Shown piece by piece: positions 21,782 through 38,088 of a stretch of 38,088 bases of DNA. The stretch spans positions 1-38,088 of the forward strand of contig WALT01000008.1 of assembly GCA_015522695.1 (NCBI GenBank). Reading direction: 5' to 3'. Numbering within the stretch: position 1 is the stretch's first letter; every line of letters begins with the position of its first letter. The notes under the pieces were generated by a model, which had not been told where the DNA came from, searched no databases, and saw only the letters and a program-made list of their open reading frames with translations. Origin of the DNA: Nitrososphaerota archaeon (GTDB lineage: Archaea > Thermoproteota > Nitrososphaeria > Conexivisphaerales > Conexivisphaeraceae). Position numbers and translations under genes: made by a program.

Positions 21782-24700
21782 TCACCACGACCTCCTTCGT
21801 CCGAACACTTCCGGATATTTCTCGGTCAGTTCCATCAAGTCGACCTTCTCGACCTCAACAAGGTAGCCGCTGACGGTCATGCCAGGACACCTCCTCGATA
21901 TCGTCTTGAACGGCGATATCAGGTTGATGGCACCTCCTCTGTCGATCTTGTCCTCTATGGACACGATATCCACCCTCGACCCTTTATCCATGCGGACAAC
22001 TCCCTTGGGCACCCTGTTCGTCAAATATGCACCCGCGAGCACGGTCCCTCTATCATTGTAGACCTTGACTATGTCCCCATCGATTATCCCCCTCCTCTCG
22101 GCGTCGATCGGGTTCATCCATAGAGGCTCATACGGGTAACCGTCAGGACCGCTGATCTTCGAGGCCGGGAGCTCCACCAACCAAGGGTTGTCATCTCCCT
22201 GTGCATGAACCCTCCACCTCGGGTGATTGGAAACCATGAGCAATGGATACCTTTCTGACCTGGGATGTGACAGGCTCTCCTGGTGGGTCTCCCCATACGG
22301 TATATAGTGTGGAACCGGAGGCCTTTCTCCATCATCCGGGAACCTCTCGGCGAGCCCCACGGAGCGGAACTCTATCTTGCCGGTTGGTGTCTCCAATGGA
22401 TGTCCCTCCGGATCCTCGTAGAACCACCTTAGCCCTGGTTTCACCCTCCCCATCCTCTTTATCTCCTCCCACTCTTCCGAGGTCGGGGCTGGCAACAGTA
22501 CCATTTTCTTCTCCTTAAGCTCCTTCCAATCGATCCGTTTGGCCATGGGAGACTCCTCATAGCGACTTTTGACGAACTCCTCGAATCGTGGTAATGTTTT
22601 CAGTCCAAGTTTATCCTCTATAGCTCTAATTATATCATAATCGCCCTTCGCCTCCCCGATGGGCTCTATGCACATGTCCGTCCATATGATCGAGACCGGG
22701 GGTATGCCCGTGGCCCTGACGGCGAAGTCCTCCTGCTCGAATGGCGTCGAAGCCGGCAAAACCAGATCGGCGAACTTGCAGTCGTTCTCGAACCATGGCT
22801 CTATCACCAAGACGAATTCGAGCTTGGAGCTTCTGAGGGCCTCCATCATCCTATAGGTTCCATTCCAGCTTGTAAGCCAGCTCCCGTTCTCATCTATCAA
22901 CATGTGTATCCCAGGCTCTCCCTCCCTCGGAAACCTATGCTTCACGAACTGATCCTCCCTCGATGCATTTATCGCCGCAGAACCGTACCATTCGATGGAT
23001 GGGCTGAGTATCGCCTCAGGGAGGAGGGTTTTAGGTATCGAGGGCTCGTGTGGTTCGAAAACGTAGCTAACGTAGGGGTTCCTCGGAAGGTTTGATGGAT
23101 GTAGATCTGGGCTGGCTGGTACGCTCGGAACAGGTTCCGACGATGCCGGTTTAGGCCTGGCTCTAGAGCTCTCCGCCGGTATCCTGACGTGATGCACGCC
23201 TGGCCTTCCAAGTCCCTGCATCGCGGATAGGAGCACCTCAAGTCTAGCTGGCTCCGTTGCGTAGGGACCCCTTATCTTCGGCCCACCGTAGTGATATGCT
23301 ATCGATGTCCTCTTCCTCGCCCATTCCCTGGCCAGAGCCCTTATAGTCTCGACTGGGATTCCCGTTATCCCCTCAGCCCATTCCGGGGTCTTCGGTATCC
23401 CATCCTCATCCCCCATCACGTACTTCTTGAATTCATCGAAGCCCACCGTGTGCGTCTCGATGTATTCCTCATCATATGTCCCCTCCTTTATCCAGATATA
23501 TGCTATGGAGAGGTATAGGGCTGCGTCGGTGTTGGGCCTTATCGGTATCCATTTATCCGCATGGACGGCTGCTGTATGGTTCAGGTCTGGAGATATGAAC
23601 ACGAGCTTTATACCAGCACGTTTTATCCAATCCATGGTGATCGAGCCGCTCTGGCTCCAAAAGCCCCATGAAGTGGTCTCGGGATCGCACCCAGTACATA
23701 TCATCATCTCCGTGTTCTCCAAGACATCCTCCCAGATATCATCCTGATATTGATGACCTCTGTACGAGTCCATGCCCCAGGCGTGCTTCGCACCCCAGTA
23801 GTAACCCTCGAAACTATCCGGGTTCCTCTGCACATGGATACATCCCCCCAAAACTTCACATAGAGCATGTGCATATGAATGTAGACTGCGCCATGTGCTG
23901 TGCCCCAGGCCGTCGGCCATCACAGCTACCGCAGTGGTGCCGTACTTATCCACGATCCTCTTCACCTCCCTCGCTATGATGTCGAGGGCCTCATCCCAGC
24001 TTATCCTCATGAACTTCGATTTCCCCCTGTTCTGTGGATTCCTGTTCTCGGGGCTCCAATCGACCCTCCTCAGCGGATATCTCACTCTAGCTGGAGAGTA
24101 GACCCTCTCCTTGTACGCGATCTCATAAGGGGCGGGAAGGCTCCTAGCAGGCCTCGTGAACTCCCGTCCCTTGGCTGCTATCCCATACACCAGGCCCTCA
24201 TCGAAGTATATCGGCCTGATCCTGATAATCCTTCCAGCTCTGATATGCACCTCCTGCGGGAGCTCAGCCATCCCCAGCCCCAATAGATTCGTCGGGAGGT
24301 AACAGATCCTGATCCTTTCGGATTCCTCCCTGAGCTTCTCAGCCTCTTCCTCCCCCATCCTCCTGAGCACCGTCAGTTTGGGGCTCCTCCCGTAAAACTC
24401 GTCCAATATATCCCCCATCCTCCTCATCTCCTCCATATGCTCAGCCCTCCGTGGCCTTCCACCTCCTAGGATCCTGAAGTCCTCCTCTACCAATTCCCTT
24501 GCCAGTAGAGCTACACCTCTATAGAAATCCGTCGACGCGTTCTCGATAATGTTCTCGGAGAGTTTTGGGAGCCAGTACGTCAGGTGCTTCTCCAAGAACT
24601 TCCTCTGCTCCTCCAGGAACCCCTCGATCTCCTCATCGTCATCCCTCCGCATGGCATCCAACGTTTTATCACAAAGATACGCCATGAACTGCAATTCTAT

Positions 24701-25093
24701 AGCGGCATGATCCGGAGGCTCGTGAAATACCCGAAGCTTATCTACACCGGCTTTCCAGTATTCCCTGAGCACCTCTTCAGCATATACCTTCATAATCAGG
24801 CCTCGTCCGCTCCTGTAGCTCGACTCCGAGGGATGCGGCAGTCCTCGAACGCCGAGGAATAGATCGGCATAGTCTGTCGCTAGCTCCAGCACCGTCTTTC
24901 CTCGATCCCTAATCCCATCCAAGTAGCGATAGATGAGTCCCAGACCCTCACCTAATCCACTAGAAGACATGAGGGCTTCGTGGAGCTCTTCGAGAAGATC
25001 TTCATCGGCTTCCCTCTCGAAGAGTCTGGAGAGGAGAAGATATGCCGCACACCTACCTCTAGTCACCTTTTCCTGTAGCTCGGATGAACCCAA
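21782..25093 (-). CDS. TorD-type chaperone fused to a transhydroxylase-like molybdopterin enzyme
   Basis: One frame of 1103 residues. Residues 1-210 are a TorD/DmsD-like chaperone: helical, with EPPDHAAIELQFMAYL at 125-140, the family signature. Residues about 262-1103 are a DMSO-reductase-superfamily catalytic subunit (WDEALDIIAREVKRI, GCDPETTSWGFWSQ, LVLPASTPFEQEDF, TPTGKIEFRSVGLAE). There is no CxxCxxxC cluster. The segment NPDSFEGYYWG places Asp426-Ser427-Phe428 where pyrogallol-phloroglucinol transhydroxylase has, to my recollection, Asp-Ser-Trp with Ser on Mo, and His398 precedes it at a similar distance. So it belongs near that transhydroxylase and its relatives, including aromatic-compound enzymes. 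Start TTG 25093, or GTG 25066. No Tat signal, hence cytoplasmic. The fusion is unusual, because TorD proteins normally act in trans. Confidence 0.85.
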   Translation of the reverse strand: MGSSELQEKVTRGRCAAYLLLSRLFEREADEDLLEELHEALMSSSGLGEGLGLIYRYLDGIRDRGKTVLELATDYADLFLGVRGLPHPSESSYRSGRGLIMKVYAEEVLREYWKAGVDKLRVFHEPPDHAAIELQFMAYLCDKTLDAMRRDDDEEIEGFLEEQRKFLEKHLTYWLPKLSENIIENASTDFYRGVALLARELVEEDFRILGGGRPRRAEHMEEMRRMGDILDEFYGRSPKLTVLRRMGEEEAEKLREESERIRICYLPTNLLGLGMAELPQEVHIRAGRIIRIRPIYFDEGLVYGIAAKGREFTRPARSLPAPYEIAYKERVYSPARVRYPLRRVDWSPENRNPQNRGKSKFMRISWDEALDIIAREVKRIVDKYGTTAVAVMADGLGHSTWRSLHSYAHALCEVLGGCIHVQRNPDSFEGYYWGAKHAWGMDSYRGHQYQDDIWEDVLENTEMMICTGCDPETTSWGFWSQSGSITMDWIKRAGIKLVFISPDLNHTAAVHADKWIPIRPNTDAALYLSIAYIWIKEGTYDEEYIETHTVGFDEFKKYVMGDEDGIPKTPEWAEGITGIPVETIRALAREWARKRTSIAYHYGGPKIRGPYATEPARLEVLLSAMQGLGRPGVHHVRIPAESSRARPKPASSEPVPSVPASPDLHPSNLPRNPYVSYVFEPHEPSIPKTLLPEAILSPSIEWYGSAAINASREDQFVKHRFPREGEPGIHMLIDENGSWLTSWNGTYRMMEALRSSKLEFVLVIEPWFENDCKFADLVLPASTPFEQEDFAVRATGIPPVSIIWTDMCIEPIGEAKGDYDIIRAIEDKLGLKTLPRFEEFVKSRYEESPMAKRIDWKELKEKKMVLLPAPTSEEWEEIKRMGRVKPGLRWFYEDPEGHPLETPTGKIEFRSVGLAERFPDDGERPPVPHYIPYGETHQESLSHPRSERYPLLMVSNHPRWRVHAQGDDNPWLVELPASKISGPDGYPYEPLWMNPIDAERRGIIDGDIVKVYNDRGTVLAGAYLTNRVPKGVVRMDKGSRVDIVSIEDKIDRGGAINLISPFKTISRRCPGMTVSGYLVEVEKVDLMELTEKYPEVFGRRRSW

Positions 25094-25625: not shown

Positions 25626-26330
25626 CTAGATCCCCAGATAGGCCTTTTTCACATGTGGATTATTTAATAGCCCCTCACCTATATCCTCGAGGACTATCCT
25701 TCCGTTCTCCAATACGTATCCCCTATCAGCTATGGAGAGCGCCTTTTGTACGTTCTGCTCCACAAGTAGTATAGATACACCTTCTTCATATATTTTCTTC
25801 ACCGCATCGAACACCTGCATCACCAGTATAGGTGCAAGGCCGAGGGATGGCTCGTCCAGCATGAGTAGTTTCGGTTTGCTCATGAGCGCCCTTCCCACCG
25901 CCAACATCTGTCTCTCTCCACCGCTCATCGTCCCGGCGAGCTGTTTCTCCCTCTCTTTCAGTCTCGGGAAAAGCGTGTACACCCACTCGATCGTATCAAA
26001 TCTCTTCTCCCACGCCTCCTTCGTATATGCACCGAGCTCCAGGTTTTCCTTCACCGTCATCTGCGGAAAGAGCCTTCTCCCCTCGGGCACTTGGACTACT
26101 CCTTCCTCGACTATCTTATGAGGAGGGATTCCATCTATTCTCTTATCCAAGAAGTGCACGCTACCGGAACGAGGGTGTAGGAGCCCGGATATCGTCCTTA
26201 AGGTGGTCGTTTTCCCCGCTCCATTGGAGCCCACGAGGGCTACTATCTCACCCTTCTCGACCTTCAGGGATACGCCCCAGAGCGCCTGCAGGTCTCCATA
26301 GAAGACATCTATGTCACTTACATCGAGCAC
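25626..26330 (-). CDS. livF: Branched-chain-amino-acid-type ABC transporter ATPase LivF
   Basis: ATP-binding subunit of a Liv/HAAT-type importer. Walker A is GSNGAGKTTTLR, the signature is MSGGERQMLAVGRALMSKP, and Walker B is LLMLDEPSLGLAP. The family-specific block VLLVEQNVQKALSIADRGYV contains a Gln-Asn where most ABC ATPases have the H-loop His, usual for LivF. It is the last gene of the minus-strand liv operon, 11 bp after livG. It acts at the cytoplasmic face with LivH/LivM. The substrate may be a branched amino acid or another carboxylate such as an aromatic acid. Confidence 0.95.
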   Translation of the reverse strand: MLDVSDIDVFYGDLQALWGVSLKVEKGEIVALVGSNGAGKTTTLRTISGLLHPRSGSVHFLDKRIDGIPPHKIVEEGVVQVPEGRRLFPQMTVKENLELGAYTKEAWEKRFDTIEWVYTLFPRLKEREKQLAGTMSGGERQMLAVGRALMSKPKLLMLDEPSLGLAPILVMQVFDAVKKIYEEGVSILLVEQNVQKALSIADRGYVLENGRIVLEDIGEGLLNNPHVKKAYLGI

Positions 26331-26341
26331 ACTCTCACCTC

Positions 26342-27061
26342 CTAGATCATGTATTTCTCCCCTAGGTAAGCTTCTATGACCTTGGCGCTATTGGCTATCT
26401 CCTCCGGCGGTCCTTCAGCTATCTTCTCACCATGATGTAGCACGATGATCCTCTTGGATATGCTCATCACGGCCCTCATCACGTGCTCGACCATGATTAT
26501 CGTCACACCCCTTCTGTTTATCTCCTTTATCACCTCCAACATCTCGGATATCTCGGTCGGGTTGAGTCCGGCTACTACCTCATCCAATAGGAGCAGCTTG
26601 GGGTCGAGGGCAAGGGCCCTCGCCAGCTCGACCTTCTTCCTCATGGCGAGTGGTAGCTCCTTGGCTTTACGCTTCATCACATCCTTAAGTCCGACGAGGT
26701 CGAGGATCTCCTCCACTTTGGCCTCGGCTTCGGAGAGGGACGCGCCCTTTGTCAGAGCTCCTACCATCGTGTTTTCGAGCACGGTCATATTATGAAACGG
26801 TTTTACGAGCTGGAACGTCCTGGCTATTCCCATCTTCGCCCTCTCATGTGATGATTTCCTCGTAACGTCTTTACCATCGAATATCACCTTTCCCGAGGTG
26901 GGATTATAGTACCCAGCTATACAGTTGAAGGTCGTGGTCTTCCCGCTACCGTTCGGGCCTATCATCCCCATAAGCTCGCCCTTATCGACCTCGAAGGATA
27001 ACTCTTTGACAGCGATCAATCCCCCGAACGCCTTAGTTAACCTGTCGACCTCGAGTATCAT
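26342..27061 (-). CDS. livG: Branched-chain-amino-acid-type ABC transporter ATPase LivG
   Basis: Second ATPase of the importer, 239 residues. Walker A is GPNGSGKTTTFNCIAGYY, the Q-loop region is ARTFQLVKPFHNMTVLEN (characteristic of LivG), and the signature area is LPLAMRKKVELARALALDP, where the canonical LSGGQ is altered to LPLAM. Walker B is LLLLDEVVAGLNP, and the H-loop is MVEHVMRAVMSIS. Signature divergence is unusual but the rest is intact. It lies 8 bp after livM. Confidence 0.93.
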   Translation of the reverse strand: MILEVDRLTKAFGGLIAVKELSFEVDKGELMGMIGPNGSGKTTTFNCIAGYYNPTSGKVIFDGKDVTRKSSHERAKMGIARTFQLVKPFHNMTVLENTMVGALTKGASLSEAEAKVEEILDLVGLKDVMKRKAKELPLAMRKKVELARALALDPKLLLLDEVVAGLNPTEISEMLEVIKEINRRGVTIIMVEHVMRAVMSISKRIIVLHHGEKIAEGPPEEIANSAKVIEAYLGEKYMI

Positions 27062-27068
27062 AGTCAGG

Positions 27069-28079
27069 TTATCCTACCCCTCCTCGTAAGAGTTTTTCAT
27101 CTATATAACCCCAAATGCCCGTCGGCAACACCAGTACCACCGCCACGACTATGGCTCCGAATGTGAATATATCGAAGCCAGCCGCAACCCCTATGTATGC
27201 CCTTAGATACTCTCCTAGGCCCACCCTCACTAGAGAACCGATTATCGGACCTATAACCGTTCCCATACCTCCTACTATTCCTATCACAAGGGCATCTAGA
27301 CCGGTGAAGGGGCTCAGCACTCCTCCAGCCTCCCAGGCCGGATCGATGTATCCCATATAGTTCGCGTAAAGTCCTCCAGCTATCCCAGCAAAAGCGGCGC
27401 TGACCAGCATCGCAAGCATCTTCAGTTTAAATGTATTAACACCTAGGGACGCAGCGGCGTCCTCATCCTCCCTTACCGAACGGAAGAGTAGACCATATTT
27501 CGATCTCGTCAGTTTATATGTTAGATAAAACGCTATTATCATGAACACCAGTGTGATATAATACCAGCTGAACTTGCTTTTGAAATCTATGATAAAACCG
27601 AACATGTTGACCGGTTGAGGTACAGGTACTGGCACGCCCTCTGCACCTCTCGTGACACCTGACCAAGCCAATATGATGAGCCTGACCATCTCCGCAAACG
27701 CTAACGTAGCGAGCGCGAAGTAGAAGCCCCTCAGTTTGAACGTCACCGCCCCCAGAGCCATGCCCGTCACTATCGCCATCGCCGCTGAGGCTATGAGGGT
27801 TAGCCAAGGATCCATATGATAGAAGTACACCAGGAGGGCGGAAGCATAGGCACCTGTACCTAAGAGGACCTCATGTCCCAATGAAACCTGTCCAGCATAG
27901 CCAGCTAGGATGTTCCATGACTGTCCGAAAACAGCATATATCATCGCCAGGATCAATATATGTAGGAGGTATAGCCGATAGGGTGTAGCATAAATCGCCG
28001 GCGGTATTAAAAATAGCACTATTATACCCACCGTTTCCAATAGGAGCCTCGATCTGTCGGTGATACCGAGCTTCATCAC
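27069..28079 (-). CDS. livM: ABC transporter permease LivM
   Basis: Membrane permease of 336 residues with about ten hydrophobic helices. Hallmarks are YAVFGQSWNILAGYAGQVSL with GHEVLLGTGAY, LRGFYFALATLAFAEMVRLI, the cytoplasmic EAA-like loop VREDEDAAASLGVNTFKLK, and GGMGTVIGPIIGSLV. The GTG/ATG start overlaps the livH stop (GTGATGA), so translation is coupled. It pairs with LivH to form the channel. Confidence 0.95.
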   Translation of the reverse strand: MMKLGITDRSRLLLETVGIIVLFLIPPAIYATPYRLYLLHILILAMIYAVFGQSWNILAGYAGQVSLGHEVLLGTGAYASALLVYFYHMDPWLTLIASAAMAIVTGMALGAVTFKLRGFYFALATLAFAEMVRLIILAWSGVTRGAEGVPVPVPQPVNMFGFIIDFKSKFSWYYITLVFMIIAFYLTYKLTRSKYGLLFRSVREDEDAAASLGVNTFKLKMLAMLVSAAFAGIAGGLYANYMGYIDPAWEAGGVLSPFTGLDALVIGIVGGMGTVIGPIIGSLVRVGLGEYLRAYIGVAAGFDIFTFGAIVVAVVLVLPTGIWGYIDEKLLRGGVG

Positions 28080-28969
28080 ATCTTACCACCTAGAAGACCT
28101 TGTGGTCTTATGAGGAGAATTCCCAGGAAGATGGCGTATGCCACGACATCCTTGATGGACGCTGGGATGAATATCACTGCTATCGATTCTGCAAGACCTA
28201 TAATCAAGGCGCCATAGAACACACCCAGGATGCTGCCGAGACCGCCGAGGACGCATATTATGAACATCAACAGTACGAGTTGCTCGCCAACCCAAGGGTA
28301 TAGATAATAGACGAGGGAAAGGAGGGATCCTCCGAGGGCAGCGAGACCTAACCCTATCCCCATGCTCAGCGTATGCATCCTATCGACATCTATCCCCATC
28401 AGGGCAGCGGCATCCGGATCCTGACTGACCGCCCTGATGGCTTTCCCCACCTTTGTACGGATGAGGAAGAAATATAGCATCAAATATACTATTACGGCGA
28501 ACATGAAGACGACAGTATATCCCATATCTAAACCGATTCCTCCTATACTGAAGGTCGTCCCCCAGTACGGGTTCGGTACCCGTCTGAAATTGCTCGTCCA
28601 GATCATTTGTGCCCCACTGGCCAGGGCTAACGATGCACCATACGTCAATATGACTGAACTGTTTATCATCTCCTCCAGTGGCCTTTTGAATAGCGGTTTA
28701 ACGAGCCACATGAATGGAAACCCGACCGCGAACATGACGGCGAAGGACACCGGAAGGGAGAGGAGCGGTGGGACGCCGAAGATCGTAAGGAGCCAAAATG
28801 TAATGTACATCCCCAACATCGCGAAGTCGCCATGCGCCAGGTTGATCACCTTCATCACGCCGAATATCATGGAAAGTCCTACAGCTATGATCGCATAAAG
28901 TCCTCCCAGAAATATTCCATATACGATGCTCGATGGAAGTAGCGCCAGCACCATTTCTAGGCTGAGCAT
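28076..28969 (-). CDS. livH: ABC transporter permease LivH
   Basis: Permease of 297 residues with eight or so helices. Hallmarks are GGLYAIIAVGLSMIFGVMKV, INLAHGDFAMLGMYITFWL, the coupling loop IRAVSQDPDAAALMGIDVDR, and VLGGLGSILGVFYGALIIG. It is the first gene after the presumed termination zone behind livK. Upstream AT-rich sequence may add an internal promoter, but read-through from livK is the default. Confidence 0.95.
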   Translation of the reverse strand: MLSLEMVLALLPSSIVYGIFLGGLYAIIAVGLSMIFGVMKVINLAHGDFAMLGMYITFWLLTIFGVPPLLSLPVSFAVMFAVGFPFMWLVKPLFKRPLEEMINSSVILTYGASLALASGAQMIWTSNFRRVPNPYWGTTFSIGGIGLDMGYTVVFMFAVIVYLMLYFFLIRTKVGKAIRAVSQDPDAAALMGIDVDRMHTLSMGIGLGLAALGGSLLSLVYYLYPWVGEQLVLLMFIICVLGGLGSILGVFYGALIIGLAESIAVIFIPASIKDVVAYAIFLGILLIRPQGLLGGKM

Positions 28970-29027
28970 CGCATCAGTCTTACCAAGAAGCCAATTAAAA
29001 AATGTTAAGGCTTAAAGGCAGGGGCAC

Positions 29028-29051
29028 AAAAAACTGATATTATAAAAAAAG
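29028..29051 (-). terminator. U-run terminator/attenuator between livK and livH
   Basis: On the minus strand two T-runs (seven and six T) follow the livK stop within about 50 bp, and a third T-run lies near 28997-29002. Archaeal polymerase stops at such runs, so many transcripts may end after livK, giving an excess of binding protein over the permease and ATPases, as is common for ABC importers. Confidence 0.5.
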
Positions 29052-29077
29052 TGAAGTAGTGGTGTCCAGTCCTGCGT

Positions 29078-30490
29078 CTACGGCGTTGTTAGTGCTGCAA
29101 CAGCGGCCTTCGGCGGATATACTGCGTAGAATGATAGACCGTTCGACTGCCATGGGATGTTCGCAGGTATTCCATCTACCTGACGTACCTTCTGTATCTG
29201 GTAGGTCACCAGATTGTACTTCCACCAACCGGCATGGCCGTTAGGATAGAAGAGTATTGGACCCATCCATGGCAGGAACATGTTCGTAGATGCGATGGCA
29301 TTCCTTAGATCCGTGTGATCAAGTGATTTCGCCCTCGTCACGGCATCCTTGATTATGTACATCACGCCTATGCCGGCCCATGCCTGGAAGTCTATCGGCC
29401 TCTTGTACTTATCCCAGAACTTATAGCTTATATCCATGACTGCAGGTAGATATGGCCATTTCTTGTTAGGCCAGAACTCGGAGGCCATAACCATACCCTC
29501 AGCGCCCTTTCCGGTCAGATCGATGAACTTCAGGGTCTGCGGTCCAGCGCCAGAGATGGTCGAAATCGGCACGTTGATTCCTACCTCCTTGGATTGCTTC
29601 ATTATCAATGCTGCGTCCGTCAGATAGCTCACCAAGCCGATGAGATCGGGATTGGTCGCCTTAACCTTCTGCAGTGTTGGCCTGAAGTCCGGCGTCCTCT
29701 TCTCATATGGCTCATCATAGACTATCGTCCATCCATACTGTGGAGCCAGCTTCTTGATGGCCCTCAGTGAAGCCTGACCATACTCACTGTTCTCGGCGAG
29801 TATGGCGACCCTCTTCGCCTTAGGATAGAGCATGCTGAGTACATGACCCATCATCAACATGTACTCAGTCGAGTTCGGCGCGGTCCTGAATACCCAGTGA
29901 TAACCTCTAGCGGTTATCGTGTCTGCACTGCAGCCTATCGTCACATAGGGTACGTGATACTTCTCGGTGACATCCTCGATCGTGTAGCCAGCTCCGCTGG
30001 CGAACCCGCCGACTACGACGTTGACCTTGTCGACCGTTATCAGCTTCTCGGCTGCAGCCGCAGCAGCCTTATAGTCGATCCCGAAGTCCTCTATATGGAG
30101 CTCTATCTTGGCCCCCAACACTCCACCCTTGGCGTTTATCTCATCGGTGGCGAACTTCACGCCATCCAGGCCGCTCTCGCCGAAGTAGGCCAACGGTCCA
30201 CTGAGCGGTTGGACGACGCCGACCTTGATCACCTTTCCAGCTAACGGAGCGGCCGCAGGCGCTGTGACCGTCTTCGTCGCAGTGACAGTACTCGTAGCGG
30301 TAACCGTTTTGGCCGCACCTGGCGCTGTGACCGTCTTCGTGGTGGTGACGGTGACGGGCGCAGGGACGGCGCTGAGTCCCCAGAAGTAGCCACCTGCGAT
30401 ACCGACGACGAAACCGACGATTACTGCAATTGTCGCTACTATAGCTGCTGATAAAACTACTCCTCTTCTCATTCTCTCCGCATAGTACAT
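29078..30490 (-). CDS. livK: ABC transporter substrate-binding protein LivK-like
   Basis: Periplasmic-binding-protein type I fold of about 470 residues. An N-terminal membrane anchor (RRGVVLSAAIVATIAVIVGF) is followed by a Thr/Ala-rich linker with repeated TKTVTA units, the typical extracytoplasmic stalk of archaeal binding proteins, often glycosylated. The ligand domain starts at KVIKVGVVQPLSGPLAYFGE and includes KIELHIEDFGIDYKAAAAAA, VNVVVGGFASGAGYTIEDV, RVAILAENSEYGQASLRAIK and FQAWAGIGVMYIIKDAVTRA. The start is ATG 30490; TTG 30502 and ATG 30472 are alternatives. TATA-like words lie at 30501-30512 and 30523-30530. The ligand may be a branched amino acid or an aromatic acid; the family covers both. 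Confidence 0.92.
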   Translation of the reverse strand: MYYAERMRRGVVLSAAIVATIAVIVGFVVGIAGGYFWGLSAVPAPVTVTTTKTVTAPGAAKTVTATSTVTATKTVTAPAAAPLAGKVIKVGVVQPLSGPLAYFGESGLDGVKFATDEINAKGGVLGAKIELHIEDFGIDYKAAAAAAEKLITVDKVNVVVGGFASGAGYTIEDVTEKYHVPYVTIGCSADTITARGYHWVFRTAPNSTEYMLMMGHVLSMLYPKAKRVAILAENSEYGQASLRAIKKLAPQYGWTIVYDEPYEKRTPDFRPTLQKVKATNPDLIGLVSYLTDAALIMKQSKEVGINVPISTISGAGPQTLKFIDLTGKGAEGMVMASEFWPNKKWPYLPAVMDISYKFWDKYKRPIDFQAWAGIGVMYIIKDAVTRAKSLDHTDLRNAIASTNMFLPWMGPILFYPNGHAGWWKYNLVTYQIQKVRQVDGIPANIPWQSNGLSFYAVYPPKAAVAALTTP

Positions 30491-30779
30491 ACTAGTCCCC
30501 AATATTTATAATTTACGTAAACGATATAAACAGCAATATGGAATGTGGTCCTAGATCAATTAGTATTAATCGATATCGAAACAGAACAGAGAAAGAGGAA
30601 TAGAATATACGGATTCCACCAAGAAGCTCGATCGGCACCCCCATAATAATCTATATACATATCTATACACATCATGATATCGATGTCCATAGTGATATCA
30701 CCGACAGATCCAGGTTGGGATTGTTCATTCCCGATCCGATGACAAAAGACGGAAATATCCGTTAGACCTTCCGCTCGTC

Positions 30780-31919
30780 GTGCACAGGGGGATTGGTGAA
30801 TCTGGAACATACGTCGGTATAGCGTTCATGGTGCTCCTGGTGACGTTCGCCTTGAGATATGGCTATGGTGTTGTCGCCAAACCCATGGCGACGGAACTCT
30901 CGCTGAGCAATGAACAGGTGGGTGCGATAGCCAGTGCCTATTTTCTGATATATGCCGCATCGACCCCGATAGCCGGTTTCCTCGCGGACGTCGTGAGCGT
31001 TAGGGCGATCCTCGCCGGCTTCATGGCGATGATGGGCTTCGGTTCGTTCCTCACGGCATCATGTGGGGACTTCTATTCCTGTGTACTAGCTTATGCGCTT
31101 GTAGGTGCAGGAAGCGGAGCTGGCTGGGCCCCCATGGCAACCCTCTCCAGGAGGGTTCTGCCGAGGTCTAGGCGTGGCCTGACGCTAGGGATAATCGACT
31201 CTGGAAGTTCAGTTGGCTTCTTCATGGCGAGCCTCCTCCCTCCTCTTCTGCTTGAAGGTGGATATAGCTGGAGGCTCAGCTGGATCATCTGGGGTATATT
31301 GTCCTTGATCGTGGCCATCGCTGCCGCAACGTCGATGCCCGGAATGAGGGGTGGACAGCATCTGAGCCCTCTAAGAGGCTCCAAGGTTTGGATCATAGCT
31401 GCATCCTACATGATGTTCGGTAGCGCGCTAGCGATTCCGCTTACCTTCGTGGTGAAGTTCGGAGTGGAGGAGATGGGGATGGTATATGCCGCTGCTGCGA
31501 TGATCGCAGCGACGATAGCCCTGTCGAGCATTCCAGGAAAGATCGCGATATCTCACGTATCCGATAGATATGGAAGGCACAGGATACTCGCCACAAGCCT
31601 CTTATTACTAGCGGTCGGAATAGCGTTGACCGCGACGTTCCGCTCCCCGATGACCTCCTACATCTTCGCGATCATGATAGGATTGGGATATGGAGGTGCT
31701 ATACCCATCTACGCTGCCATGGCAGCCGATACCAGCGAGATGGCTGGTACCGTACTTGGAATGTGGACCGTGTTCTTCTCGCTGGGCTATGCTACGACCT
31801 CGTGGGCTGCTGGACGATTGACGGACATCGTTGGCAGCTATATACCATCTTTCATCTTGGCTGCTGGACTGGCTTGTACAGCTGCGCTCCTCATCCTCGT
31901 AGCCAGGATTTTGCACTGA
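30780..31919 (+). CDS. MFS transporter (first of a tandem pair)
   Basis: Major facilitator protein of 379 residues with twelve hydrophobic helices. The N-terminal FALRYGYGVVAKPMATELSL and NEQVGAIASAYFLIYAASTP, followed by GFLADVVSVRAILAGF, and the second-half SHVSDRYGRHRILATSLLLL are MFS motifs. The resemblance is to carboxylate and oxalate/formate-antiporter-like members, though the substrate is unknown. The GTG start at 30780 is the only one that keeps helix 1; upstream 30503-30779 is AT-rich with no gene. Adjacent to a close relative at 31981, it may have arisen by tandem duplication. Confidence 0.87.
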   Translation: MHRGIGESGTYVGIAFMVLLVTFALRYGYGVVAKPMATELSLSNEQVGAIASAYFLIYAASTPIAGFLADVVSVRAILAGFMAMMGFGSFLTASCGDFYSCVLAYALVGAGSGAGWAPMATLSRRVLPRSRRGLTLGIIDSGSSVGFFMASLLPPLLLEGGYSWRLSWIIWGILSLIVAIAAATSMPGMRGGQHLSPLRGSKVWIIAASYMMFGSALAIPLTFVVKFGVEEMGMVYAAAAMIAATIALSSIPGKIAISHVSDRYGRHRILATSLLLLAVGIALTATFRSPMTSYIFAIMIGLGYGGAIPIYAAMAADTSEMAGTVLGMWTVFFSLGYATTSWAAGRLTDIVGSYIPSFILAAGLACTAALLILVARILH

Positions 31920-31951
31920 GGCTGCACATCGGCTGGATATAATATCATCAG

Positions 31952-31960
31952 CTTTATATC
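31952..31960 (+). promoter_or_regulatory. TATA box of the second MFS gene
   Basis: CTTTATATC is centred about 26 bp before the ATG at 31981, implying a leaderless transcript, so the second MFS gene has its own promoter. Confidence 0.6.
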
Positions 31961-31980
31961 AACCTCTAAAACCTACGAGG

Positions 31981-33342
31981 ATGAGCTTGGATAGACCTTA
32001 TCTGATCCTCATAGCCTCCTTCTCAGTAGCGTTCATGGCCTATGGGATCAGATATACCTACGGAATCCTGCTGCCGGAGATGATGGCAGGGCTTGGAATG
32101 GGAAACACCGTGGCTGGCCTTGTCTACTTCTCCTTCTTCCTCTCCTACACGATAGTATCACTACTCGTCGGGCTGCTCGTGGACTCATGGGGAGCACGAC
32201 GTACCGTATTGACGTTCCTTCCCATCTTCGCTGTGGGGGTGGGCCTGATCGGGATGGCTGGATCAGCGTTGGAGGCAGCGGTATATCTCGCCATCGTTGG
32301 AGTAGGAGCATCTGTCGGTTGGATCCCATTGGTTATCTGGGTACAGATGGCGTTCCCAGCCAGGAGGGGGTTCTACTTAGGAATCCTACAGACGGGTTGC
32401 AACATGGGGTTCGGTACCATGGGGCTGATCGTACAACCACTTGCCTCGATAATGGGTTGGAGAGAGGTCTGGATGGTTCTTGGCCTCATGGCGGCCGTCT
32501 GGTTGATTCCACTAGCTATTTTGGCCGGGGACATGATCCCAGGAGGGGATGGAGGACCCCCGATCGACATCAGGAGGTTGACATCACTCGTACTCAAGGG
32601 AAGGGCTTGGGCCGGTGGAATCTCATACATGTTTGCAGCCTTCGCAATAATGGTACCGGTGACCTTCGTCAAGGCTTTCGCCTCTCTAGAGCTGGGGATG
32701 AGCGCTGAGGTGGCAGCTTCCATGTACGCGTTGATGGGGTTCATGGGGGTGGCGGGGGCTGTGATAGTCTCAGCTGGATCGGATATCCTCGGCAGGAAGA
32801 GGACCCTAATTCTGGCCAATACGATTTTAGCGATCGGACTCATCGGCCTTTATGCCGTGAAGGGCGGTATCGACATGTCGGCCTGGATCTCGGTGCTTGG
32901 ATTCAGCTATGGATCCATCTGGCCTCTCTATGCTGCTCTCGCGAGGGACGAGTATGGATGGGGAACAGCTGGATCTGTTATGGGCTTGTGGACGGTGTTC
33001 GCTGGGCTCGGACTACTGGCTGCACCACCGATCGGTGGTCTGCTCGCGGACTTCAGCGGTAGCTACAGGCCAGCATATCTTCTGGGCGCCGTCATAGCTA
33101 TGGCTTCACTCGTGCCGCTGGTGATGGGAGGGAGAGGATCTGTCCATGTCCGATTTCATGAAGATGCCATGGAACGAAGTATCGCTGAATATAAAGGCGT
33201 ATGGTCGAGGGGCCATGCCCATCATCCTGGATATCCAGGATCGTATGTTGGAAGTCGGTTCATGCAGGGATATTGGAGTAGAGCACGCCGAGAGCTATTG
33301 TCAACGCTCCGATCACGGCGTTCAGTATCGAGAGGGCTATAA
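31981..33342 (+). CDS. MFS transporter (second of a tandem pair) with long C-terminal tail
   Basis: MFS permease of 453 residues. MAYGIRYTYGILLPEMMAGL, GLLVDSWGARRTVLTF and SDILGRKRTLILANTIL are the motif-A-like regions, and twelve helices end near residue 380. The last 65-70 residues (RGSVHVRFHEDAMERSIAEY onward) are polar, basic and unlike a transporter core. The final 83 bp overlap the convergent membrane-protein gene at 33260. The extension may be a true cytoplasmic tail or read-through after loss of the normal stop. Substrate unknown. Its placement between the liv importer and the ligase operon suggests transport of a related carboxylate. Confidence 0.87.
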   Translation: MSLDRPYLILIASFSVAFMAYGIRYTYGILLPEMMAGLGMGNTVAGLVYFSFFLSYTIVSLLVGLLVDSWGARRTVLTFLPIFAVGVGLIGMAGSALEAAVYLAIVGVGASVGWIPLVIWVQMAFPARRGFYLGILQTGCNMGFGTMGLIVQPLASIMGWREVWMVLGLMAAVWLIPLAILAGDMIPGGDGGPPIDIRRLTSLVLKGRAWAGGISYMFAAFAIMVPVTFVKAFASLELGMSAEVAASMYALMGFMGVAGAVIVSAGSDILGRKRTLILANTILAIGLIGLYAVKGGIDMSAWISVLGFSYGSIWPLYAALARDEYGWGTAGSVMGLWTVFAGLGLLAAPPIGGLLADFSGSYRPAYLLGAVIAMASLVPLVMGGRGSVHVRFHEDAMERSIAEYKGVWSRGHAHHPGYPGSYVGSRFMQGYWSRARRELLSTLRSRRSVSRGL

Positions 33343-33837: not shown

Positions 33838-35181
33838 TCATCTATCGCCTTTAATTAACGTTCCATCAGGACCTCGCAGGATCCTGACAAGTTTTCTATG
33901 TGCAAATGGCAGCCTCTCCCTCGCCACCAACCTGGCTTCAATCCCTATCCCCAGCTTCTTGTGCGCGACCCTGTCGATCTCATCTAGCATCTCAGCACAT
34001 GGATCGCGATCCCCCTCCCTCCCTATCAGGAGCTTGAGCTTGTCGCCGCCCGCCTCCGGGTTGACTATCGTGAAGAGCCTGTATCCACATACTTCCTCCA
34101 CGACCAGCGAGACTTCATACGGTGTCATCAGCCTACCATTCATCCTGAATGTGTTATCGAGCCTATCGAATATCCTGACCCTATAATGCGTCCTGCCGCA
34201 CTCGCACCTTTCCCTCTCGACCTGAGCAAGGTCGTCGCCCAAATACCTGATCACGAGTGGACCACCTAGCAGGAGAAGTGTGGATATCCACCTACCCTTA
34301 CCGCCATAATCCACGGGCTCCAGGGAATCCATCTCCACGAGTTCGAGGAGATCTACATCCATCCAGACATGCCATCCCCTGTGAACGTAACAGTCGGCGC
34401 TTCCCCACACGCCGTCCGTGTTCCCTCCAGCATCGAAGACATCGATCACATCCGTCTCATCCATGATCTTCTTCCGAAGCCCCTGTGTCATGGGCTCACC
34501 GGATAGTTGCATGTATCTGACGCTCGAGAATACCTTCCTGGGCTCGACGCCGATCCTCGTCGCCTCCTCCATGAGCGCCTGGATCATCCATGGTATCCCG
34601 ATGAAGTAATCGGGTTTGTTGTCCAACATTGTCCTCATCATGTTGTGGATGTACTTCTGCATCGTAGTGCCCCAGGGCGTCACACATGATGCGCCCATCT
34701 TGGTCAGGACGAGGTTCGTCATGATCCCCAGGAAGTGCCAGCCCGTGAGGACCTGGAACACCTTCATGCCAGGCCTCAGCTTCGTCATCCAATAGTGTCT
34801 CATGAACAGCTTCTCTACTATCTCGTCTGCGAAGGCCTGGCCCATGCCGAGCACGGTATTCACCCCTGTGGTCCCGGATGTCATCGAGTAGATGCTGATC
34901 TCCTCGGGTTTACAGGAATAGAGCCCTGCTGTCGGATCGCCTGGAGCCGTTGACCTCCTCACGTCATCCTTCGTGTATGGGGGTATCCTCCTCTGGAAGT
35001 CGTGCATCGAGTTTATGTCGTCCGGGGTTACGCCGACCTCCTTCCACCTCTTCCTATAGAAGCGGGAGTTATCATATGCATATCTGATCACCGCCTTCAA
35101 TTTCCTGAACTGTATATCCTCCAGATCCTTATAGGACATCGTCTCGGCTTCTTCATCGTAGTACTCACGGTCGGCTATCAC
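33838..35181 (-). CDS. PaaK-like acyl-CoA ligase (phenylacetate-CoA-ligase family)
   Basis: AMP-forming CoA ligase of about 447 residues; activates a carboxylic acid, typically aromatic (phenylacetate, benzoate-like), with ATP and CoA. Hallmarks are YDNSRFYRKRWKEVGVTPDD, the P-loop IYSMTSGTTGVNTVLGMGQA, GGNTDGVWGSADCYVHRGWH, and IFDRLDNTFRMNGRLMTPYE (hinge). The C-terminal domain holds the likely catalytic Lys in FAHRKLVRI. The frame is open to 35286, but GTG 35181 overlaps the stop of the preceding gene (GTGA) with GGAGGT 9 bases upstream, so I set the start there. Substrate unknown. Confidence 0.88.
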   Translation of the reverse strand: MIADREYYDEEAETMSYKDLEDIQFRKLKAVIRYAYDNSRFYRKRWKEVGVTPDDINSMHDFQRRIPPYTKDDVRRSTAPGDPTAGLYSCKPEEISIYSMTSGTTGVNTVLGMGQAFADEIVEKLFMRHYWMTKLRPGMKVFQVLTGWHFLGIMTNLVLTKMGASCVTPWGTTMQKYIHNMMRTMLDNKPDYFIGIPWMIQALMEEATRIGVEPRKVFSSVRYMQLSGEPMTQGLRKKIMDETDVIDVFDAGGNTDGVWGSADCYVHRGWHVWMDVDLLELVEMDSLEPVDYGGKGRWISTLLLLGGPLVIRYLGDDLAQVERERCECGRTHYRVRIFDRLDNTFRMNGRLMTPYEVSLVVEEVCGYRLFTIVNPEAGGDKLKLLIGREGDRDPCAEMLDEIDRVAHKKLGIGIEARLVARERLPFAHRKLVRILRGPDGTLIKGDR

Positions 35182-35843
35182 AGTGAGACGACCTCCACGC
35201 CGCTGGGCCCGCATTCGAGCGATGTGCGATGTGACCTTCTCTCCTTCGCGAAGAGCGGCCTGACCTCCACGAAACCAGAGCTGCACTTGACGTCGTAATA
35301 ACCGGATGGATAGTAGAGGGAGCCGTCCTCGAGCAGCCCGAGGAAGAGCCCATCATCGGACTTATAGAGCAGATGACGGGAGAATACACCAGGGCCGAGC
35401 TTAACCTCCCGTGGTAGGGGTGCAGGATCTGGATGTACGATGAGGACGATCTCCAGATTCGGGTTCGCCGAGGCGATGTCCCCTCTCTCGAGGTTTGAGC
35501 GAAAGACCGAGACGAGTTCCGACCTTATCATGAGGACCTCGGGCTGGAGCATCGAGAACATGAACGCGCTTCTGGCGGCGAGCTCTGGCACCCCATCGAC
35601 GCTCATCATCGAACAGTCGAGGATCTCGCATGCACCGCGCCTGAGCTCTGGAGCATATGCCCTCGAGACGACTATCGCTGGAAGGGACATGCTGAAGTCG
35701 TATACCAGGACTTTATTCCTCGCATGAACGCCTGACCGATCCATGAGGTTGGCCAGGACCTCAGCTAGAGCCTCGAGCGACCTTCGTGTCAGGTAGATAT
35801 AGCGAACATCGGGCTCATCCCAGGGCTCAGCCTGTATTATCAT
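35178..35843 (-). CDS. Partial PaaK/ANL-like protein without catalytic motifs
   Basis: 221 residues. The segment TRRSLEALAEVLANLMDRSG, then NKVLVYDFSMSLPAIVVSRA and ELAARSAFMFSMLQPEVLMI, resembles the PaaK N-terminal-half region that follows the P-loop (helix, 'D.V...' strand, and the search for the binding surface). I see no (S/T)-rich P-loop, no hinge and no C-terminal Lys domain. So it looks like a degenerate ligase fragment retained as an open, well-spaced gene. It is translationally coupled to the intact ligase (4-bp overlap), suggesting a subunit or regulator. The similarity is by eye and modest. Confidence 0.55.
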   Translation of the reverse strand: MIIQAEPWDEPDVRYIYLTRRSLEALAEVLANLMDRSGVHARNKVLVYDFSMSLPAIVVSRAYAPELRRGACEILDCSMMSVDGVPELAARSAFMFSMLQPEVLMIRSELVSVFRSNLERGDIASANPNLEIVLIVHPDPAPLPREVKLGPGVFSRHLLYKSDDGLFLGLLEDGSLYYPSGYYDVKCSSGFVEVRPLFAKERRSHRTSLECGPSGVEVVSL

Positions 35844-36365: not shown

Positions 36366-37526
36366 CTATCTGAACGATGCCTCCTCCAAGTAGAAGTATC
36401 CGTTTTCATCCTGGAAACCGTATACTTCCGTGCCGAGCCAATTTGTATCCTTTCCCATTATCCTGACCTTCGTCTGACGTTGCCTGGGATCTCCAACATC
36501 CTTATCCATGTCTATGAAAGCACCCCTCAAGGCTAGCTCGCCGTGATCCCCAGGCCCCATAAGCCTCCTACCCCTGTACCAGCTGGCCTCCAAGATCTCG
36601 GATATCACGGCCTCAGCGTTCGTTATCGGGATGCCGGCGGATCCGTGCACGTTGAAGTCCCTCGGGTTGGCGAACACGATGCCCCTCCCGGACACGCCGA
36701 ACATCTGGAGCACCTGAAGCCCAGACCTCTTCTCCAACGACCTGATGATTTCAGCCTTCAATGGTCCCTCGACGCCTACATATGAGAGGGAACGTCTCTT
36801 GGATCGTAGAAAATCCCCCAGCTCCCTCGATCGAGCGAGCTCCCTCGACGCGAAGAGCACAGTAGCTTCCCCATCCATAACCGCCAAACCGCCGATATCC
36901 CTGGAGAAGGAGAGGGGGAGCCCGAGCATGAGGGAGGAGACGGCGGAGAAGAATGTGAATTCCCTTCCATAAGGTCCTAGGAGCGCTATACCGTCCTCCG
37001 ATTGCAGGCCGGAGAAAGCGGAGAACGATTGGATGGCATTCCACATGTCGGCCATATAATACATCGCCTTGATGTCATCCTGGAATGAGAGCATGATCGC
37101 CGGTTCCTGGGATATCCAAGAGGACCTCTCCATCCCCTTCACAGTGACCTTGATGTCCTTATCGGGGTCACCCGTGGAACTCGACTGGTCTATCAAGACC
37201 CTGCATGCCGGGTTGAGCGACCTATCCATTAAGATCTCCATCGAGAGACCTGTGAGAAGTGAGGTGGCTATGCCTATCAGATATGCTAAGGGATCATCAG
37301 CGGACACAGTGAAACAGCCTTCCTTCCCCAGCGCATCGGCAGTCCTTCTGACCTGAGCTGTGAACGAGGTCCAGTCCAACGAATATACATCGGACTTATA
37401 GCGCCATCTGATATCACGGCTCAGGAAGTCCTTCGGAAGTTCTGTCAACTGTAATGTCCTCGGGATCCCCTCGGGCCAATAGAGTGATTCCCAAGCTTGG
37501 AATTCGGCTGCGACTAACTTGGACAC
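36366..37526 (-). CDS. Degenerate acyl-CoA synthetase-like protein (ANL N-domain only)
   Basis: 386 residues. N-terminal WPEGIPRTLQLTELPKDFL and SFTAQVRRTADALGKEG match the start of AMP-forming ligases. The end, LQVLQMFGVSGRGIVFANPR, GSAGIPITNAEAVISEI and GTEVYGFQDENGYFYLEE, matches the late N-domain (YGMTE..., GSVGxP, TGDxGYxDEDGY). The ATP P-loop expected in the middle is absent (the equivalent reads IMLSFQDDIKAMYYMADMWN), TGD is GTE, and the C-terminal lid domain with the catalytic Lys is missing. The frame is intact and tightly packed in the operon, so it is probably a pseudoenzyme or scaffold rather than a pseudogene. Confidence 0.7.
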   Translation of the reverse strand: MSKLVAAEFQAWESLYWPEGIPRTLQLTELPKDFLSRDIRWRYKSDVYSLDWTSFTAQVRRTADALGKEGCFTVSADDPLAYLIGIATSLLTGLSMEILMDRSLNPACRVLIDQSSSTGDPDKDIKVTVKGMERSSWISQEPAIMLSFQDDIKAMYYMADMWNAIQSFSAFSGLQSEDGIALLGPYGREFTFFSAVSSLMLGLPLSFSRDIGGLAVMDGEATVLFASRELARSRELGDFLRSKRRSLSYVGVEGPLKAEIIRSLEKRSGLQVLQMFGVSGRGIVFANPRDFNVHGSAGIPITNAEAVISEILEASWYRGRRLMGPGDHGELALRGAFIDMDKDVGDPRQRQTKVRIMGKDTNWLGTEVYGFQDENGYFYLEEASFR

Positions 37527-37546: not shown

Positions 37547-38088
37547 TTACTTATGCGTTCTGGACATGCGTATCTCCCCGAGATCGACGTCACCCTCGAC
37601 CTTGAACTCGAACTCCTCTGTTTCATAGCCATCATATTCGACCTTGACAATGTACGTTCCTCCATAGTCCACCTCCATCATGAAATCCCCGAATGCATTC
37701 GTCTTGGTCTGTACCACGATGTCTCCAGAGGCCTTATCCACGACGGCCACATCGACACCTCCAGCACACTCGTCTGTATCCGATAGGATCACGGAGCCCC
37801 CTATGATCGGCTTCGGAAGCCCTAGGTATCTGACGGCCGGCCCGATCCCGTTGGGCGCTCCTGGAAGTAGCAAGTCCTTAAGGCGATCGGGCGATAGCTC
37901 GGAGGCCTTCTTATAGACCTTCGATACATCGCTCTCTGGGTCATCCAGGTCCCCGAATACCATGGCTCCGGTAGGACATGCCTCCACACATCTCGGCTTC
38001 CTCCCCTCGTCGAGGAGATGTGCGCACATGGTGCACTTCTGGGCTATCTTGAGCTCATCGTTCATCGATATCGCACCATATGGGCACG
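37547..38088 (-). CDS. Ferredoxin/transthyretin-like subunit of a molybdoenzyme (5' partial)
   Basis: The frame enters from the right edge (CPYGAISMNDELKIAQKC continues upstream of the internal ATG at 38065). Fe-S motifs are CPYGAI, CTMCAHLLDEGRKPRC and CVEACPTGAMVFGD, as in NrfC/PhsB-type four-cluster or three-cluster subunits. After VRYLGLPKPIIGG comes a beta-rich domain (GGVDVAVVDKASGDIVVQTK, TNAFGDFMMEVDYGGTYIVK), a carboxypeptidase-regulatory/transthyretin-like fold. This two-part layout is that of the small subunit of pyrogallol-phloroglucinol transhydroxylase. Its catalytic partner is probably encoded just outside the window, or could be the fusion protein at 21782-25093. Confidence 0.85.
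   Translation of the reverse strand, partial: CPYGAISMNDELKIAQKCTMCAHLLDEGRKPRCVEACPTGAMVFGDLDDPESDVSKVYKKASELSPDRLKDLLLPGAPNGIGPAVRYLGLPKPIIGGSVILSDTDECAGGVDVAVVDKASGDIVVQTKTNAFGDFMMEVDYGGTYIVKVEYDGYETEEFEFKVEGDVDLGEIRMSRTHK

Follow-up and report, generated by a model that had tools for sequence, protein, structure and literature searches.

NarJ binds NarG, an enzyme that is not exported, at its N-terminus and at a second site, and cofactor insertion depends on NarJ; the apoTorA-TorD conformation is kept without the signal peptide (PMC10609526, PMC5123574). How chaperones of the TorD/NarJ type hold the apo-enzyme during entry of the bulky cofactor has been hard to establish, partly since the complexes are transient. 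Enzymes of the RhL/PgtL family carry a Ser-ligated Mo and are cytoplasmic (PMC10100899), while Mycobacterium tuberculosis has a "fused nitrate reductase", NarX, in which several Nar parts are combined in a single chain (PMC7759655). No description of a fusion between TorD and a catalytic subunit was found in the open-access literature searched, the coverage of which is incomplete, so that "undescribed" is a provisional term; the words "fused" and "fusion" are absent from a survey of the NarJ subfamily (PMC4464133).

Here we describe such a fusion, encoded in the window (the whole stretch of DNA that was analysed, 38,088 nucleotides). Its parts are as follows.

21782..25093, minus strand: fused torD-pgtL-type gene, 1103 codons plus stop, TTG start
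24470..25093, minus strand: TorD/NarJ-family domain, residues 1-208 (PF02613 at 86.8 bits, conserved positions, model)
24674..24721, minus strand: TorD signature EPPDHAAIELQFMAYL, residues 125-140 (D128 and H129 do not vary among 25 aligned TorD domains)
24314..24469, minus strand: joint or linker, residues 209-260 (residues 210-246 predicted to be disordered)
21785..24313, minus strand: RhL/PgtL-type Mo/W-bisPGD catalytic domain, residues ~261-1103 (Pfam, match to 4v4c, pLDDT mostly 85-98)
23813..23815, minus strand: Ser427 of NPDSFEG, presumed Mo ligand (aligned to NPDS of PgtL 4v4c)

A chaperone and a molybdoenzyme in one reading frame

The preliminary description of this DNA, made from the sequence alone, had proposed an uninterrupted frame of 1103 codons; this was confirmed, with no break, and the strand, previously unstated, is the minus strand (25093 to 21782). 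The product matches, in order, the Pfam models Nitrate_red_del/TorD (PF02613; residues 46-178, 86.8 bits, cut-off 22.2), AhtL-like_1st, the PgtL-type first domain (residues 282-328, 32.3 bits, cut-off 27), Molybdopterin (residues 336-826, 114 bits, cut-off 24) and Molydop_binding (residues 952-1059, 61.1 bits, cut-off 26.8). At the sequence level, it is thus confirmed that two complete domains, one of the TorD/NarJ family and one of an RhL/PgtL-type Mo/W-bisPGD enzyme, are joined in one real chain. With both parts above the Pfam cut-offs in a single frame, the earlier proposal of a genuine two-domain chain, in which a chaperone is tethered to its client, was borne out.

The TorD signature EPPDHAAIELQFMAYL was found where it had been reported, and the E-P-x-D-H motif of the TorD/NarJ family is present in it as EPPDH (residues 125-129). 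Thirty positions were defined by at least 90% conservation across 17 unfused TorDs: the window protein keeps all of them, and the fusions of genomes G278 and G780 (see below) keep 27 and 24, respectively. The closest sequence to the TorD part is TorD 1n1c. When modelled separately, this domain gave a pLDDT of 82.5, and Foldseek matched the model with YcdY, DmsD, TtrD and NarJ with bound NarG signal peptide (probability 1.00). The predicted domain therefore has the all-helical fold of the redox enzyme maturation proteins (REMPs). Known members of the TorD/NarJ family are also free-standing and act in trans, which is not the case for the window copy, fused as it is in one frame; on sequence grounds, membership of this REMP family (PF02613) applies to the domain and not to the whole fused protein.

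Identity of the catalytic domain

Among solved structures, the large subunit of pyrogallol-phloroglucinol transhydroxylase (4v4c) is closest to the enzyme part both in sequence and in fold (TM 0.83 on the target), in agreement with the earlier recognition of a transhydroxylase-like molybdoenzyme. The protein has the PgtL-type first domain, the Molybdopterin domain and the Molydop_binding domain of the RhL/PgtL family, all above cut-off, and its predicted ligand, Ser427, is aligned with the NPDS serine of PgtL and is invariant among eight aligned enzymes. No Tat motif was seen at the enzyme's own N-terminus when residues 220-265 were read directly, as the preliminary description had also found, and the predicted enzyme fits the cytoplasmic, Tat-less character of the family. 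An Fe-S subunit gene lies beside the large subunit at the G278 fusion and not at the window gene; such adjacency is a genomic habit of the RhL/PgtL family rather than a strict criterion.

Of 136 near-invariant positions of the family, 9 are altered in the window enzyme, H396L and C742S among them (family median 2). Its H398 aligns (phmmer) with H144 of PgtL, which we take to be a catalytic residue. The reaction is uncertain because of the long branch of this enzyme (see below), the altered near-invariant positions and the absence of an adjacent Fe-S subunit gene; the enzyme probably acts on a phenolic compound or on another aromatic one.

A fused nitrate reductase of the NarX type was considered and rejected: this would need a composite of NarG-, NarJ- and NarI-like parts, whereas the window protein consists of TorD followed by a PgtL-type enzyme, the narG model scores 73.7 against a cut-off of 1084, and a NarI-like region is absent.

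The joint and the unfused relatives

Two further features of the gene lie at the joint.

24434..24436, minus strand: internal ATG in frame at codon 220, the position of the start in unfused homologues; may serve as a second translation start
24446..24450, minus strand: GGAGG, 9 nt before the internal ATG; putative ribosome-binding site (match by eye)

Prediction of the structure of the joint, a check suggested in the preliminary description, gave residues 210-246 as disordered and flexible (pLDDT below 50 in the full-length AF2 model). TorD homology runs in frame to about residue 208 and the N-terminal tail of unfused enzymes can be aligned from about residue 220, so that only about 10 residues of the joint are left without a homologue for checking. 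The longest homopolymer at the joint is 3. A TGA in another frame sits just before the internal ATG, and together with the GGAGG these elements look like the relic of two abutting genes, which one indel, real or artefactual, could have joined. The internal ATG with its GGAGG may also yield free enzyme from the window gene. It had been proposed that the fused chaperone acts once per enzyme: the tethering stands, and the once-only action is uncertain, as the putative internal start could add free enzyme.

Unfused torD and enzyme genes are found in the same genome and in relatives. Contig C27 of the same genome has a paralogue of the enzyme (54%) together with a divergent torD (48%) and a gene for PgtS, and in two genomes of the window's family (G001 and G002) the torD genes are separate. 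The operon order torD-enzyme-FeS on one strand, observed in G002 (contig C106) and in G663, is the gene order that a fusion needs. G001 also has a PgtL-type enzyme (L052:9246-11975) with no Fe-S subunit gene in the stretch examined, like the window's fused copy. In several relatives the PgtL matches contain an in-frame TAG; recoding was rejected as an explanation, since at the one locus checked (L012) this is an ordinary stop before pgtS.

Most of the unfused relatives' enzymes have no Tat signal yet keep torD, and for this reason service of TorD to Tat-less enzymes appears to be general here. In these archaea TorD would thus serve RhL/PgtL-type enzymes without a Tat signal as a rule, and the fusion merely tethers it. 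The preliminary description had argued that without a Tat signal the usual proofreading role of TorD cannot apply. The absence of such a signal does not leave a TorD-type protein without a role, as seen in the unfused relatives, with torD beside Tat-less enzymes, and in NarJ, which serves the non-exported NarG (PMC10609526). Two enzymes of the same family in Candidatus Terraquivivens (L092:9875-12676 and L102:9968-12712) have a twin-arginine signal-like N-terminus, which suggests that the enzyme family switches between cytoplasm and export.

Occurrence and origin of the fusions

A search of archaeal genomes for the same two-domain order, as had been recommended, yielded a second case. In G278, an archaeon of another order of the same class, one frame of 1139 codons encodes the same domains, with 47.5% identity over the full length; no evident ribosome-binding site with an enzyme start was found at its joint, and the Fe-S subunit gene is kept next door. 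A third fusion was identified in a genome of the Bacillota lineage.

L218:5495-8569, plus strand: TorD-DmsA fusion, 1025 aa, genome G780

This protein matches TIGR02166 (1011.8 bits, cut-off 777.7), PF02613 and an Fe4S4 domain. It leaves no room for an N-terminal Tat signal and is apparently a soluble cytoplasmic enzyme of the DMSO-reductase type. Its gene is followed by one for a ferredoxin-type subunit and then by an unrelated AzlC gene. No similar TorD-DmsA fusion was seen in four other genomes of the same family.

The PF02613 searches gave 47 matches in 400 genomes of the class, about 105 in 398 genomes of the phylum, about 85 in 250 genomes of the phylum to which Sporomusa belongs and, among those listed, more than 150 in 299 Pseudomonadota; the four samples overlap slightly. 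PF02613 was in frame with a complete molybdoenzyme in 3 of about 390 matches among those listed, namely the window, G278 and G780. Among the closest enzyme relatives, 78 genome loci were all free of a TorD fusion, none was seen in the sampled relatives of the window's family or order, and no relatives turned up when viral contigs were scanned. Separate genes in every close relative had been named beforehand as an argument against the fusion; within the family and order, as sampled, the genes are indeed separate, but the fusion recurs farther away, in G278 and G780.

Several other candidates were discarded. On a Citrobacter freundii plasmid, the only plasmid record covering at least 80% of the query, the torD and enzyme genes are separate. 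A 1026-aa frame of G111 with a weak PF02613 match encodes an unrelated repeat-rich protein of secreted type, and the long frames of G1236 and G1215, which owe their length to over-extension in GC-rich DNA, are not fusions. A different N-terminal fusion was observed in an actinomycete.

L096:3514-7083, plus strand: PgtS-PgtL fusion, 1190 codons, Actinomycetes MAG

In this protein a PgtS-like Fe-S subunit with a CarboxypepD_reg domain is placed at the N-terminus of a PgtL-type large subunit, and its gene directly follows another PgtL-type gene.

In the enzyme tree, the window protein forms a long branch (0.69-0.72) beside a clade of 20 archaeal and proteobacterial rows, and the G278 protein is paired with a Bathyarchaeota enzyme. 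Forcing the two together cost 89 log-likelihood units (p-AU 2.5e-5), and a single origin of the archaeal fusions was rejected on the basis of the enzyme domain; sisterhood of the two TorD domains was neither required nor rejected (p 0.315). Since the archaeal enzyme domains do not form a clade, the fusion probably arose more than once. Three events (two archaeal fusions and the DmsA one) are the simplest count, and an old fusion with later splits or exchange keeps some probability as an alternative to repeated fusion; the long window branch urges caution. The architecture is real and rare, built from known families and probably recurrent.

Function of the fused TorD domain

We consider it likely that this is a genuine fusion of torD with an enzyme gene, and that the product is a cytoplasmic RhL/PgtL-family Mo/W-bisPGD enzyme which carries its own maturation chaperone. 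The TorD domain is most likely a tethered cofactor-insertion chaperone. Neighbouring torD and enzyme genes would have fused to give one chain, in which the chaperone is attached covalently, via a flexible linker, at the N-terminal position where free chaperones of the NarJ type bind their client. In principle, the linker (210-246) would have the length needed to bring TorD to a docking site on the enzyme part. During insertion of Mo-bisPGD, while the catalytic domain is still open, TorD would dock on it, either within its own chain or on a neighbouring one, and after loading it would stay as a loose N-terminal lobe, the internal ATG possibly giving extra free enzyme. We infer that cofactor insertion in cis is the best-supported reading, on account of the N-terminal TorD, the flexible linker, the conserved TorD positions and the precedent of NarJ and TorD. 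In the full-length AF2 model the TorD rows were poorly aligned and the pLDDT of this domain was low, hence the model offers no docking pose.

Three other explanations were weighed against this one. In the organism, torD and the enzyme could be two abutting genes, the single frame resulting from an assembly error of one base, or from a frameshift at the strain level, around codons 208-220. The in-frame ATG at the homologous start position, the GGAGG 9 nt before it and the TGA in another frame have the look of a remnant of such a pair, the relatives in the family and order are unfused, and the genome is a 34-contig assembly. We nevertheless regard this as very unlikely, as the joint has no homopolymer longer than 3, G278 shows the same architecture with no evident enzyme start, G780 has a third fusion, and it is improbable that a full frame was restored by error three times independently. 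It is also improbable that TorD has ceased to be a chaperone and become a permanent structural or electron-transfer-interface part, perhaps in place of the missing Fe-S subunit. A fusion does entail stable attachment, and no pgtS adjoins the window gene, where a convergent nitroreductase gene lies downstream instead; but a purely structural role would not demand full conservation of the chaperone motif positions, TorD has no redox cofactor motif, and the fusions of G278 and G780 keep a neighbouring Fe-S subunit gene, which argues that TorD is no replacement there.

The window copy might, finally, be a decaying or idle paralogue in which the fusion is a tolerated accident without function. Its long branch (0.69-0.72), changes such as H396L and C742S at near-invariant positions, the lack of an adjacent Fe-S subunit gene and the intact paralogues elsewhere in the genome point this way, but 1103 intact codons, the retained Ser427, the alignment of H398 with H144 of PgtL and the 30 of 30 TorD positions make such decay hardly probable. 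Beyond the preferred reading of a tethered chaperone, the fusions could represent a convergent class of self-maturing molybdoenzymes, in which TorD, permanently tethered to complete catalytic subunits of two or more MopB subfamilies (PgtL-type and DmsA-type), would load or reload them in cis throughout their life, the internal start in the window supplying chaperone-free subunits; we think this doubtful.

Genomic surroundings

The window gene is followed downstream by a convergent nitroreductase gene, with no adjacent pgtS. The following features complete the locus.

25626-30502: Liv-type importer, upstream of the fused gene
33838-35286 (minus), 36366-37526 (minus) and 30780-33342 (plus): PaaK-like AMP-dependent ligase pieces and two MFS carriers
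37547-38088, minus strand: PgtS-like Fe-S subunit, C-terminal part, cut by the contig end

Some of these genes have weak similarity to aromatic-acid carriers. The importer, the MFS carriers, the PaaK-like ligase and the truncated PgtS would suit aromatic-acid metabolism, and the region resembles a locus for aromatic compounds. The ends of contigs C30 and C31 fall within the N-terminal part of the same kind of PgtS-like gene, their final 151 bases being identical, and contigs C8 and C9 share the point at which they resume. These shared ends indicate that a repeat broke the assembly there; the true join is to either C30 or C31.

Comparison with known systems

A natural covalent pair of chaperone and enzyme would offer structural studies a complex that is already trapped. 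It would also allow the part that TorD plays in cofactor loading to be told apart from its role in Tat proofreading, and the recurrence of the fusion argues for a close one-to-one relation between chaperone and client.

The window domain has the domain, fold and EPxDH motif of the TorD/DmsD/NarJ redox enzyme maturation proteins (PF02613). The known members are separate proteins which act in trans, whereas the window chaperone is part of its client's own chain. With PgtL (4v4c) and the RhL/PgtL family, its best match in sequence and fold, the window enzyme has in common the NPDS serine and a predicted cytoplasmic, Tat-less character; it differs from PgtL in its N-terminal TorD domain, in the absence of an adjacent Fe-S subunit gene and in sequence (~30% identity). 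NarX, which includes a NarJ-like region, is likewise a single chain combining several parts. Compared by description only, it is put together from pieces of Nar subunits and has no demonstrated nitrate reductase activity, whereas the window protein joins a chaperone to an intact catalytic subunit. The PgtS-PgtL protein of L096 is also an N-terminal fusion on the same enzyme family, but its fused partner is an Fe-S electron-transfer subunit, and that of the window protein is a chaperone.
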